DNA from: Litoribacter populi
GTDB lineage: Bacteria > Bacteroidota > Bacteroidia > Cytophagales > Cyclobacteriaceae
Direction of reading: 5' to 3'
Length of the DNA stretch: 64,000 nt
Assembly (NCBI RefSeq): GCF_007483685.1
Contig: NZ_VMKN01000002.1
Span: 273,452 to 337,451, forward strand
Shown here one piece after another: positions 15,678 through 59,551 of the stretch (the stretch's first letter is position 1; every line of letters begins with the position of its first letter). The translations under genes were made by a program, and so were the position numbers. The notes under the pieces are model-generated. The model saw only the letters and a list, made by a program, of their open reading frames with translations, made no database searches and was not told the DNA's origin.

Positions 15678-15730
15678 CATCCATCATCCGACATCGGTCA
15701 TCCGTCATCGGTCATCCGACATCCGTCATC
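15678..15730 (-). repeat. Heptamer tandem array, GRTGWCS family (clpB 3' UTR)
   Basis: About seven consecutive 7-bp units of the type CATCCGA/CATCGGT (GGATG-type on the clpB sense strand). The array lies between the clpB stop codon and its terminator. Related arrays occur at 31352-31410, 38888-38926 and 39789-39852. Confidence 0.85.
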
Positions 15731-15739
15731 AATTCATTC

Positions 15740-31322: not shown

Positions 31323-31348
31323 GCCTTCCTTATGGGGAGGCTTTTTTT
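31323..31348 (+). terminator. Terminator of the fatty acid hydroxylase gene
   Basis: A 7-bp stem (31323-31329 with 31335-31341, one U-G pair), a 5-base loop and seven T. Confidence 0.88.
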
Positions 31349-31351
31349 GTT

Positions 31352-31410
31352 GGGTGACGGGTGACGGATGTCGGATGTTGGATGACAGGTGACGGGTGAC
31401 GGATGTGATG
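31352..31410 (+). repeat. Heptamer tandem array, GRTGWCS family
   Basis: About eight 7-bp units such as GGGTGAC, GGATGTC and GGATGAC, starting three bases after the T tract of the preceding terminator and ending 34 bases before the next gene. Confidence 0.88.
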
Positions 31411-35312: not shown

Positions 35313-35410
35313 ACACCTCCAATCCCGCTTTGGTGGGACAAGGGGTTAATTTACAATTTAACCAATGTAAAATTAACCTTAGGCTTTGGCCTGGGGGTAA
35401 AAAGAAAATT

Positions 35411-36961
35411 ATGAGCTTAGAAATTAAAGTCCCTGCCGTAGGGGAATCTATCAGCGAAGTGACCATTGGACAATGGTTTAAAAATGACGGCGACTACGTC
35501 GAGATGGACGAAGTAATCTGTGAACTTGAATCAGACAAAGCTACTTTTGAATTAACAGCTGAAGCTGCAGGAGTATTAAAAACAAGTGCTAAAGAAGGTG
35601 ACACCCTTGAAATCGGGGACGTGATCTGCACCATCGACACCAACTCAACAGGGGATTCTGCTTCAGCCGAAAAAGCAAGCAAGAGCTCTAAAGAGGAAAG
35701 TTCTTCTTCAAACACTGGAGGAGTAACCGGAGAAGTGAAGGAAATGGTAGTCCCTACCGTAGGTGAGTCCATCACCGAGGTGACATTGGCCACTTGGCTG
35801 AAAAACGATGGTGATTATGTAGAATTAGACGAAATCATCGCTGAGGTGGATTCTGATAAGGCCACTTTTGAACTTCCTGCTGAGGCAAACGGTATCCTTC
35901 GCCATGTGGCACAGGAAGGCGACACCTTGGAAATCGGCGGATTGATCTGCAAGATCGAAGTGACCGAAGGTGGTGCCCCTCAGGGTGAACCAGCACCGGC
36001 TGCCAAGGAAAGCGCTTCAGCAAGTGCATCCGCTTCTGCAAACGAAACATATGCAACCGGGCACGCCTCTCCTGCTGCAGCCAAGATTTTGGCTGAAAAA
36101 GGAATCGACCCAAAAGAGGTAAACGGAACCGGTAAAGATGGCCGTGTAACCAAAGAAGACGCTGAAAAAGCGCAGAAGACTGCCAAACCTGCAGCAGCTA
36201 AGCAAGAAAGCAAGCCGGCTTCCAAAGCCACAGAAGCAGAAGCACCAAAAACCAGCGGAGAGAGAAACAGCCGTCGTGAAAAGATGACTTCCCTGAGAAG
36301 AACAATCGCCAGAAGACTTGTTTCCGTGAAAAATGAGACGGCCATGTTGACCACTTTCAACGAGGTGAACATGAAGCCTATCATGGATATTCGTAAGCAG
36401 TACAAAGATAAATTCAAGGAGAAGCATGGCGTAAACCTAGGTTTCATGTCCTTCTTCACCAAAGCTGTCTGCGTAGCCCTTCAGGAATGGCCTGCAGTGA
36501 ACGCGCAGATTGACGGAAACGAGATTGTTTACAATGATTTCTGTGACATTTCTATTGCGGTTTCCGCCCCAAAAGGGTTGGTGGTTCCGGTGATCAGAAA
36601 TGCTGAGAAACTTTCATTTGACGAAGTGGAGAAAGAAGTTGTAAGACTTGCCACCAAAGCAAGAGATAACAAATTGTCCATCGAAGAGATGACAGGTGGC
36701 ACATTCACTTTGACCAATGGAGGTATATTTGGTTCCATGATGTCCACCCCAATCATCAACGCCCCTCAATCGGCAATCCTAGGCATGCACAACATCGTTG
36801 AAAGACCGATGGCTGTCAACGGTGAGGTCAAAATCCTCCCAATGATGTACCTAGCCCTCTCCTACGACCACCGAATCATCGACGGACGCGAGTCCGTAAG
36901 CTTCTTGGTGAGAGTAAAGGAACTACTCGAGGATCCGACGAGGCTTCTGTTTGGGGTATAA
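35411..36961 (+). CDS. sucB: 2-oxoglutarate dehydrogenase E2 (dihydrolipoyllysine succinyltransferase)
   Basis: A 516-residue protein from the ATG at 35411, where the first lipoyl domain begins ([14 protein letters not shown]). There are two lipoyl domains, with lipoylated Lys43 (ESDKATFEL) and Lys150 (DSDKATFEL), joined by Ser/Lys/Glu-rich and Ala-rich linkers. A peripheral subunit-binding domain follows ([28 protein letters not shown]) and then the acyltransferase core with the catalytic [10 protein letters not shown] near the C-terminus. E. coli SucB has a single lipoyl domain, so the doubling is notable. The next complex gene, lpdA, is displaced by the four-helix-bundle insert. Confidence 0.96.
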
Positions 36962-36976
36962 ATCATTTGACTTACT

Positions 36977-37009
36977 AGGTACAAAGTACCAAGTACCAGG
37001 TACCAAGTA
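36977..37009 (+). repeat. Left arm of GTACNAA heptamer array
   Basis: Four and a half 7-bp units (GTACAAA, GTACCAA, GTACCAG, GTACCAA, GTA) begin 16 bases after the sucB stop. The arm is the inverse of the array at 37448-37479; the two can pair over about 31 bases with four mismatches. Confidence 0.88.
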
Positions 37010-37082
37010 AATAACCGTGTATCTTGAAATTAGCGGGGAATTAAGTATTTTAACACTTTACTTTTTTCCCCATCTTTTTCAT

Positions 37083-37433
37083 ATGCACAGATATCAAGAA
37101 TTAAAAGTATGGCATAAGGCCATCAACCTTGCTGTTGAAGTGTACAGCTTGACTGAAAATCTTCCTAAAAGAGAGCAATATGGATTAATTAGCCAAATTA
37201 ACCGCGCCGCCATATCTATACCTTCCAATATTGCTGAAGGTGCTGGGAGAAATTCGAATAAAGATTTCAACCATTTTTTGGGTATAGCGCTGGGGTCAGC
37301 CTTTGAATTAAATACTCAATTACTGATTTCCAACAAGCTCAACTACCTAACAATTGATAAATTTGAGGATTTATCAGTGAAATTGGTGGAGATCCAGAAT
37401 ATGCTTGTCAAATTAAAGCAAAGTTTAAAATAA
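37083..37433 (+). CDS. Four-helix bundle protein (23S rRNA intervening-sequence protein family)
   Basis: A 116-residue protein from the ATG at 37083. It has the S23/IVP family hallmarks: RYQELKVWHKAINLAVEVY at the start, LPKREQYGLISQINRAA, the signature SIPSNIAEGAGRNSNKDF (about 54-71) and LGSAFELNTQLLI. The fold is a four-helix bundle that forms pentamers in related proteins such as the Avd protein of diversity-generating retroelements. Classical members are encoded inside intervening sequences of 23S rRNA genes; their role is not settled. Here the gene sits between sucB and lpdA and is bracketed by inverted GTACNAA arrays, so the whole unit (about 36977-37479) looks inserted into the operon. 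Confidence 0.93.
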   Translation: MHRYQELKVWHKAINLAVEVYSLTENLPKREQYGLISQINRAAISIPSNIAEGAGRNSNKDFNHFLGIALGSAFELNTQLLISNKLNYLTIDKFEDLSVKLVEIQNMLVKLKQSLK

Positions 37434-37447
37434 AAATAAACGACCCT

Positions 37448-37479
37448 GTACTTGGTACTTTGTACTTTGTACTTGGTAC
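37448..37479 (-). repeat. Right arm of GTACNAA heptamer array
   Basis: Four and a half units in the opposite orientation to the left arm (TTGGTAC, TTTGTAC, TTTGTAC, TTGGTAC). It starts 14 bases after the bundle gene stop and ends 12 bases before the lpdA ATG. Confidence 0.88.
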
Positions 37480-37491
37480 AAACAAAAAAAT

Positions 37492-38889
37492 ATGTACGAC
37501 GTAATCGTTATCGGCTCAGGACCAGGCGGGTATGTGGCAGCCATTAGGGCGGCGCAGCTTGGGATGAAGACGGCCATCGTAGAAAAATATTCCACACTTG
37601 GAGGTACCTGCCTAAATGTAGGTTGTATCCCTTCCAAGGCTTTACTGGATTCCTCAGAGCATTATCATAATGCTGCCCACACCTTCGAAACTCACGGCAT
37701 CGACCTGAAAGATCTTCAGGTTAATTTCGGTCAGATGATCGGCCGAAAAAATGAAGTGGTGAAGCAAAACGTAGACGGCATCCAGTATTTGATGAAGAAG
37801 AACAAAATCGATGTTCATCATGGATTGGGTTCTTTTGTGGACAAAAACACTGTCAAGGTGACCAAAGAAGATGGAAAAGCCGAAGAAATCCAAGGCAAAA
37901 ACATCATCATTGCCACGGGTTCTAAGCCTTCTTCTCTTCCTTTCATTAACATTGACAAGAAGAGAATCATCACCTCCACGGAGGCGCTTACACTTAAGGA
38001 AATACCTAAAAATCTGATCGTGATCGGCGGTGGGGTTATAGGTTTGGAACTTGGTTCGGTGTATGCCAGAATAGGTTCCAAAGTTTCCGTGGTGGAGTAT
38101 ATGGATTCTTTGATTCCTACCATGGACAAAACTATGGGCAAGGAACTTCAGAAGTCCCTCAAAAAACTTGGTTTCGATTTCTTCCTGAAGCACAAAGTCA
38201 CTTCTGTTGAAAATACAGGAAATGAAGTTGTAGTCAAAGCTGAGAACAGCAAAGGCGAAATCGTAGAATTGAAAGGCGACTATGTCTTGGTTTCAATCGG
38301 AAGAAGACCTTACACTGACGGTCTCAATGCTGAGGCTGCTGGCGTAAAACTTAACGACAGAGGTCAGATAGAAGTAGACGAGCACCTAAAGACCACTGCC
38401 GACAACATTTACGCTATCGGTGATGTAATCAAAGGCGCCATGCTGGCTCACAAAGCGGAGGAAGAAGGCGTGTTGGTAGCCGAGCAATTGGCAGGTCAGA
38501 AGCCGCACATCAACTATAATCTGATTCCAGGAGTAGTTTACACTTGGCCAGAAGTAGCTGCTGTAGGTTTTACCGAGGAGCAGTTGAAGGAAAAAGGCAT
38601 CAAGTATAAAACCGGGAAGTTCCCATTTATGGCTTCCGGTAGAGCGAGAGCTTCCATGGACACGGACGGATTGGTGAAAGTTTTGGCTGACGCTGAAACT
38701 GATGAGATCTTGGGTGTTCACATGATCGGACCGAGAACAGCGGATATGATCGCTGAAGCAGTAGTAGCTATGGAGTACAGGGCTTCAGCGGAGGATATCG
38801 CTAGAATGTCACATGCTCACCCAACTTACACTGAGGCTTTCAAGGAAGCTTGTCTGGCAGCCACTGGTAATAGGGCGTTGCATATTTGA
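37492..38889 (+). CDS. lpdA: Dihydrolipoyl dehydrogenase (E3)
   Basis: A 465-residue flavoprotein that reoxidises dihydrolipoamide with NAD+. FAD loop GSGPGGYVAA (8-17), redox-active disulfide GGTCLNVGCIPSK (Cys40, Cys45), NAD loop IGGGVIGLELGSV, the second FAD motif IYAIGDVIKGAMLAHKA and the C-terminal active-site HAHPTYTEAF are all present. Normal length. It completes the 2-oxoglutarate dehydrogenase set with sucA and sucB but lies 530 bases beyond the sucB stop because of the four-helix-bundle unit. Its stop codon overlaps the first unit of a heptamer array, followed by a terminator. Confidence 0.97.
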   Translation: MYDVIVIGSGPGGYVAAIRAAQLGMKTAIVEKYSTLGGTCLNVGCIPSKALLDSSEHYHNAAHTFETHGIDLKDLQVNFGQMIGRKNEVVKQNVDGIQYLMKKNKIDVHHGLGSFVDKNTVKVTKEDGKAEEIQGKNIIIATGSKPSSLPFINIDKKRIITSTEALTLKEIPKNLIVIGGGVIGLELGSVYARIGSKVSVVEYMDSLIPTMDKTMGKELQKSLKKLGFDFFLKHKVTSVENTGNEVVVKAENSKGEIVELKGDYVLVSIGRRPYTDGLNAEAAGVKLNDRGQIEVDEHLKTTADNIYAIGDVIKGAMLAHKAEEEGVLVAEQLAGQKPHINYNLIPGVVYTWPEVAAVGFTEEQLKEKGIKYKTGKFPFMASGRARASMDTDGLVKVLADAETDEILGVHMIGPRTADMIAEAVVAMEYRASAEDIARMSHAHPTYTEAFKEACLAATGNRALHI

Positions 38890-39788: not shown

Positions 39789-39852
39789 GGGAAGATGTGG
39801 GAAGACGGGTGACCGATGACCGATGACCGATGTGGGATGTCGGGTGAGGGGG
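39789..39852 (+). repeat. Heptamer tandem array, GRTGWCS family (between divergent genes)
   Basis: Units include GGGTGAC, CGATGAC (twice), CGATGTG and GGATGTC. Unlike the other three arrays of this family it lies upstream of genes on both sides. Confidence 0.85.
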
Positions 39853-45732: not shown

Positions 45733-45893
45733 CGTACTTCGTACTTGCTTTTGGGTACAAAGTACTAGGTACCAATATCAAGTATTTTTATGAGGACAAC
45801 CGCTTAGCTTTAGTTTCTTCCTCTTTTTCAGGACACTATTTAAACGTGCTCCTCCTTCGCACCTTGAACTTCTTATTTCGTACTTGAGGTACC
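45733..45893. repeat. Gene-less GTACNAA arrays and inverted repeat (intergenic)
   Basis: The 321-base interval 45703-46023 has no protein gene. It holds short GTACNAA-type arrays in alternating orientation: TTCGTAC-type units at 45734-45747, GTACAAA/GTACTAG/GTACCAA units at 45755-45775 and TTCGTAC/GAGGTAC at 45877-45892. The first two can fold into a hairpin. A second feature, the inverted repeat CGCTTAGCT (45801-45809) and AGCTAAGCG (45903-45911), flanks the last array. It looks like the bundle-gene element of the sucB-lpdA gap with the gene missing. Confidence 0.65.
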
Positions 45894-59483: not shown

Positions 59484-59510
59484 TCCTGAGCAAATATAGA
59501 AAAAGTACGA

Positions 59511-59551
59511 AGTACGAAAAGACGAAGTACGAAGAAGTAAACAAAAAAAAG
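59511..59551 (+). repeat. GTACGAA heptamer array without a gene
   Basis: Units of GTACGAA and variants repeat about four to five times between the SprT-like gene start and the terminator of the Glu-rich lipoprotein. This is a solo array of the same family as the arms in the sucB-lpdA gap. Confidence 0.8.

Follow-up and report, generated by a model that had tools for sequence, protein, structure and literature searches.

What is a gene of the IVP/S23 family, known from intervening sequences (IVSs) of 23S rRNA, doing between two genes of metabolism, and why is it framed by heptamer arrays in opposite orientation? The question is raised by the window analysed here, a 64,000-nucleotide stretch of the Litoribacter populi genome in which such a gene separates two others that, judging from their sequences, we take to be sucB and lpdA. 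The original prediction held that the arrays could pair as arms of a stem, that the layout was that of an rRNA IVS set in a metabolic mRNA, and that the insert might be mobile, be excised, or divide the sucAB and lpdA transcripts.

The unit between sucB and lpdA

The sucB-lpdA gap is 530 nt long and the unit spans 36973-37479 of the window (Table 1, in which the sucB start is the ATG within the listed open reading frame 35330-36961). Its ORF is intact and read in the operon direction. The arms match essentially as forecast (27 of 31 positions): over 31 nt, segment 36973-37003 has 87% complementarity to segment 37448-37478, and in the predicted RNA of the unit 30.5 pairs are expected between them. 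The IVS-like layout in a metabolic mRNA is supported. The hairpin of the leader has a mean z of -2.9 over nine sucB-lpdA orthologues, four of them below -4; as a general feature of such units it was rejected, mean z being 0.2 over 18 other loci.

Table 1. Features of the unit and its host genes, in window coordinates.
Feature	Position	Strand	Remark
sucB (2-oxoglutarate dehydrogenase E2)	35411..36961	+	upstream host gene
left (5') arm, GTACNNN heptamer array	36973..37009	+	starts ~12 nt 3' of sucB stop
leader hairpin	37035..37071	+	directly 5' of IVP start; leader z -4.9
IVP / S23-family four-helix-bundle gene, 116 aa	37083..37433	+	
right (3') arm, inverted GTACNNN array	37448..37479	+	stops ~12 nt 5' of lpdA start
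lpdA (E3, dihydrolipoyl dehydrogenase)	37492..38889	+	downstream host gene; conserved

Assignment of the gene to the IVP/S23 family was upheld, its product matching both PF05635 (23S_rRNA_IVP; E 1.5e-41, 141.3 bits against a cut-off of 33.8) and TIGR02436 (E 2.7e-39, 133.8 bits, cut-off 24); the source genome has only six PF05635 matches. The AlphaFold model of the protein (mean pLDDT 92.6) is a four-helix bundle whose four long helices are preceded by a short one, and it superposes on the solved family members 2gsc (TM 0.97) and 2rld (TM 0.85), each of which has five chains per entry. It also aligns with Avd (4dwl) and with a DGR ribonucleoprotein (8ub7), at TM ~0.8 and Foldseek E ~0.1; the corresponding Avd sequence profiles match weakly, below their cut-offs (PF22296, 24.4 bits of 40; DivGenRetAVD, 26.5 bits of 80), and one Avd family was matched in PHROGs. 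Pfam recognised only IVP and bAvd-like families in this protein, with no transposase and no nuclease, and PADLOC returned no match.

Arms at other IVP loci

In the source genome GTAC arrays occur as a dispersed family whose members mostly lack an IVP gene: the pattern GTACN3GTACN3GTAC matches 124 times genome-wide (overlapping matches counted singly) and its reversed control not at all. In 424 kb of this genome, made up of the window and 18 evenly spaced 20-kb stretches, there are 18 arrays of period 7, nine of period 14 and five of period 21, with 0-3 for each other period between 4 and 20; a Markov control gave no period-7 array. The period-7 arrays fall into several heptamer families. Within the window, arrays of GATG/CATC and GTACNNN types lie without an adjoining IVP gene at 15685-15731, 31348-31385, 39800-39843, 45734-45780 and 59505-59530. 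The array at 15685 has a terminator-like hairpin on its 5' side and no counterpart at the same place in G001, a genome of the same genus whose LpdA is 97% identical to that of the source. Elsewhere in the source genome, an IVP gene is flanked on either side by copies of an ATTCATC heptamer array spaced ~206 bp apart (L037, 2195-3983).

Such abundance of GTAC and other heptamer arrays could mean that an ordinary operon gene happens to stand beside dispersed repeats, its arms being chance neighbours. Surveys of other IVP loci make this scarcely credible. A profile scan of genome contigs gave 578 relatives, the best 80 of which form our first sample of named loci; because only the best 80 of 578 were taken, it is biased toward relatives of the query. 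In these 80, the 350 nt on either side of the gene hold period-7 arrays upstream at 20 loci and downstream at 27; arrays of other periods occur at 0-5 of the 80, except for period 14 (23 upstream, 20 downstream). Arms were scored by comparing the 200 nt 5' of the gene with the reverse-complemented 200 nt on its 3' side, at a threshold of at least 13, three of the 80 loci being dropped for short flanks. The threshold was reached in inverted orientation by 49 of the 77 scored loci from this best 80, with a mean of 3.7 for permuted pairings; 12 of the 77 reached it in direct orientation. Among 85 control ORFs from these loci, ten also scored 13 or more; the IVP scan covered nine of the ten, and seven turned out to be IVP genes, rediscovered through their arms.

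A search of 61 genomes of the phylum found an IVP match in 45. The second sample consisted of 40 loci picked at even intervals from the higher-ranking listed matches, with two of the picks moved by one row; 28 of the 40 reached 13, with 1.3 for permuted pairings. It may overlap the first sample and, judging from neighbours, at least five pairs among the 40 represent the same gap in related genomes. IVP genes elsewhere thus do carry arms, and the locus-specific inverted pairing in both samples, together with the permutation tests, argues against chance neighbours, as does the presence of arms at IVP genes even in genomes with few or no solo arrays. About one third of IVP loci are below the threshold (28 of 77 from the best 80 of 578, 12 of 40 in the second sample). 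Two in the source genome, L023 and L024, are without arms, L024 being a short ORF; a third source-genome locus, L003, was judged by eye only. Since Rfam gave no match for any of 20 named IVP loci scanned, these are not rRNA inserts.

The notion that solo arrays are a simple by-product of IVP number was rejected, for array density does not follow IVP count. At a strict threshold, and with IVP arms included, array density is 42 per Mb in the source genome (G000) and 150 per Mb in G001, the latter figure coming from only 40 kb around its IVP unit; in four sampled IVP-bearing genomes belonging to the genus of G048 it is 0-17 per Mb, despite 4-9 IVP matches in each; and G063, which is free of IVP genes, has none in 240 kb.

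GTACNAA, the motif named in the original prediction, did not survive the survey as the one that defines the unit. Arms vary between units: other armed IVP genes of the source genome use other repeats, and GATGTCG, AGATTTG, AGTATTA and AAGAGCC are among the heptamers carried by other units. Over the 77 armed loci of both samples (49 and 28) the matched arm has a median length of 28 nt and mostly consists of 7-nt repeats, with a few, such as L100 and L149, in 8- or 9-nt steps. What the arms do share is polarity: in the 5' arm AG exceeds CT at 69 of these 77 loci, falls below it at one and ties at seven (69 of 70 informative), and distances from AG to AG peak at 7, 14 and 21 in the armed loci of both samples. 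Oriented NAG repeats stepped at 7 nt in units whose protein has five-chain relatives suggest ring-type recognition by IVP. Arm likeness is also correlated with IVP relatedness (Mantel r 0.21, p 0.0005, over 943 pairs of 49 loci with flank-homologous pairs removed); L094 and L113, with 70% identity but unlike arms, are among the clear exceptions. In one orthologous gap next to an ABC-transporter gene, G000 and G001 have IVPs of 63% identity with arms of different heptamer families on both sides.

Arm polarity alone would also fit a DNA-binding protein that reads terminal inverted repeats. The arms could be such repeats, recognised in DNA; the unit would then be moved or protected by IVP, or by a host enzyme acting together with IVP, and the pairing in RNA would be incidental. 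The inward-read arms, of the same type at both ends, are what such an element would have, and some arrays do come and go between sister species: of those beside terminator-like hairpins, one is present in the source and missing from G001, and another shows the reverse. We return to this explanation below, with the orientation of the units and the nature of their exchange.

The pairing itself persists in longer context. Prediction on the full-length RNA of the 49 armed named loci gave a median paired fraction of 0.83, 42 of the 49 being at 0.5 or more, and two of the controls with swapped right arms reached 0.5; as these loci had been chosen by their arms, the result shows only that pairing survives in the full-length RNA. 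Five of the 49 arm pairs (L100, L117, L148, L092, L153) remain below 0.3 and fold with other parts of the full-length RNA. For ten of the 17 units scored at sucB-lpdA, pairing of an arm with its own partner gives 17.0 and with the partner from another species 14.8 (p 0.009), a margin too slight to show strict compensatory change between the arms.

Occupation, decay and exchange of operon gaps

The named units recur in operon gaps. Among the best 80 of 578 loci, 26 are in fadB-fadA, 12 in fadA-fadE and one (L095) at sucB-lpdA, and the fad gaps are occupied in several orders of the phylum. NCBIfam matches identify further gaps as carA-carB, purC-purF, sdhA-sdhB, rpoB-rpoC and nrdB-nrdA, and in G001 fcl-gmd, those to nrdB, fadB and fcl being below the curated cut-offs; they also place mutA at L087 and mutB at L100, to which L143 and L160 were joined through blast clustering, and pyrB upstream of the unit in L123. 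The second sample adds, as apparent gaps read from the first protein residues only, groES-groEL, nuoC-nuoD, gnd-zwf and argJ-argB. Units thus split genes of one complex or pathway, among them mutA-mutB, carA-carB, sdhA-sdhB, rpoB-rpoC, nrdB-nrdA, fadB-fadA-fadE and apparently groES-groEL, which invites the view that they are spacers useful to the host: regulatory modules that set the relative output or assembly of the flanking subunits and are kept by host selection. The use of the fad gaps across several orders speaks for this. Operon neighbours are usually functionally linked anyway, so that the complex-subunit pattern may be partly a reflection of this.

Orientation is strongly biased. Of the 74 named loci concerned, all from the best 80 of 578, 70 have the IVP gene co-directional with both neighbours, as do 29 of the 33 outside the fad/suc group; in the second sample 29 of 37 units are co-directional with both, and another 5 of the 37 run antisense to the two neighbours. 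Pairs of adjacent ORFs in the source genome give a null of 0.36. A DNA element would not require such strong co-directionality with transcription. At L297 and L316 the IVP gene is antisense to an ABC-transporter operon, apparently in the gap where the source-genome unit L021 lies in sense.

The sucB-lpdA gap allows the history of one seat to be followed. Relatives do include empty and damaged sites: of 31 family loci examined, 30 have sucB in place, and their gaps hold eight open IVP genes, four damaged ones (L056, L060, L061, L070) and, in 18, nothing that matches the IVP profile. Across 11 species of the genus of G048 the count is five open, two damaged (L186, L192) and four without match; three of these four, inspected by eye, retain a short arm-end hairpin and one does not. 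In the gene-less remnants L184, L185 and L187 the arm-end hairpin is followed by a T run, again as seen by eye, like an intrinsic terminator. A chimeric unit, one of the five open ones, is found in L188 (G064), whose left arm and first part of IVP are unlike those of its sisters while the rest is nearly identical to L189. G063 is the sole case among the 11 species with no IVP match; each of the other ten has 4-9.

Of the 12 sucB-lpdA proteins in the IVP tree, nine form one clade (98/85) and L071, L075 and L077 fall outside it; four changes are counted in all, two of them forced by the starred branches, the placement of L077 not being settled and L075 and L071 being long branches. L095, unlabelled in the tree test, groups with another IVP (97/82). 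The placement of these four implies repeated filling of the gap: two occasions are the minimum, and there may have been four or five.

IVP itself is under purifying selection where dS can be estimated: dN/dS is 0.03-0.19 in the 12 of 15 compared pairs that allow it (dS by NG86, values above 1 being rough). Such selection is what a spacer kept by the host would show. Against the spacer stand the frequent damage and loss among relatives, the lack of any IVP match in G063 when ten sister species have them, and the filling of the same gap by different IVPs; on balance we think the host-useful spacer unlikely.

Units have also been exchanged between species. In the pair L189-L190, dS is 0.12 in IVP versus 1.69 in the neighbouring lpdA, and the tract of high identity takes in the unit with ~50 bp of sucB and ~35 bp of lpdA; the pattern resembles an exchange of alleles through recombination around the unit. 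In both fad gaps the units of several species pairs are more alike than their flanks, some within wider tracts, and those of other pairs are not. Nucleotide constraint could account for part of the higher identity of units, a view countered by the G000 and G001 units at sucB-lpdA, whose IVPs have saturated dS and 66% identity, versus 97% in LpdA. As far as sequences reveal it, the exchange pattern is not one of clean transposition, nor does it demonstrate homing by a dedicated enzyme. The suspicion of mobility holds for repeated occupation of the gap and horizontal exchange; in the best-dated pair, L189-L190, transfer looks like allelic recombination with short flanks and not like clean transposition. 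These facts divide in the same way over the element recognised in DNA: occupation of one gap more than once would suit it, and a tract that takes in the edges of the two host genes, in the manner of homologous exchange, goes against it, as do the co-directionality and the lack of any transposase or nuclease among the Pfam matches of IVP. We consider it quite improbable.

A probable intervening sequence of mRNA and its known counterparts

The reading that we prefer, and hold to be probable with real room for doubt, is that the unit is a self-contained mobile intervening-sequence element of polycistronic mRNA. Its core is an IVP gene in a loop closed by inverted arrays able to form a stem of ~30 bp; comparison of loci adds recurrent units, decay, loss, repeated occupation and interspecies exchange. 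In the mechanism we propose, the stem would be cut in the mRNA, RNase III being the obvious candidate by analogy with 23S IVSs. The cut would free the IVP segment and leave the sucAB and lpdA messages translatable, and intercistronic gaps would serve as seats since cutting at such places causes little damage. The IVP protein would recognise the 7-nt-spaced NAG repeats of the arms and so may aid persistence or spread of the unit. A fuller version, in which IVPs are rings that read NAG triplets stepped at 7 nt in the 5' arm of the mRNA that encodes them, and the units are phylum-wide mRNA intervening sequences between cistrons of complexes, parasites that spread across species while switching the cutting of operon messages, is possible but doubtful.

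If the units are indeed mRNA inserts, IVSs would cease to be an oddity of rRNA and would count among the widespread parasites or regulators of bacterial operons, with seats that include rpoB-rpoC, sdhA-sdhB and fadB-fadA, and the repeated, oriented arms would offer a concrete candidate ligand for the IVP protein. The protein family and the idea of the IVS are already known; for units seated in mRNA, with oriented heptamer arms and a recurrent choice of operon gaps, we met no earlier description in open-access listings, whose top search results contained no link of IVP genes to heptamer arms or to fad/suc gaps. PMC5524665 lists, under phage elements of two strains, a four helix bundle gene between those for guanylate kinase and nicotinate-nucleotide adenylyltransferase; the main text of PMC9723704 does not contain 'four helix', 'S23' or 'intervening'.

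Heptamer repeats of another kind have been described. TAACTGA repeats occur in Beggiatoaceae, Cyanobacteria and five Bacteroidetes, in intergenic sets that in one genome lie mostly just 5' of start codons, and a post-transcriptional role was proposed for them (PMC4679880). They are likewise intergenic 7-nt sets, but of one fixed heptamer in direct orientation, and the main text of that paper mentions no IVP gene and has no occurrence of S23, intervening or four helix.

The closest counterpart is the 23S IVS of Coxiella burnetii, described as an S23p/IVP ORF within a stem of terminal inverted repeats of 28 bp, cut by RNase III in vitro and termed a selfish element; the same source gives IVP/S23 proteins no known function (PMC4990558). 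Both systems have an IVP-family ORF in a stem of complementary ends. They differ in that the window unit occupies a gap of a polycistronic mRNA, outside the 23S rRNA gene, and has arms that belong to a class made mostly of 7-nt repeat arrays; and the Coxiella ORF is described as being in reductive evolution (PMC4990558), whereas IVP here is under purifying selection. Avd (bAvd) of diversity-generating retroelements has a similar fold, with the weak, sub-threshold sequence match noted above, and the immediate neighbours here are sucB and lpdA. For recognition of the arms, a parallel is offered by TRAP, the trp RNA-binding attenuation protein, a ring of 11 subunits that reads evenly spaced NAG triplets at ~5-nt spacing. 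The recognition proposed for IVP would follow the same idea with an unrelated fold, in a protein whose relatives have five chains and on repeats spaced at 7 nt.
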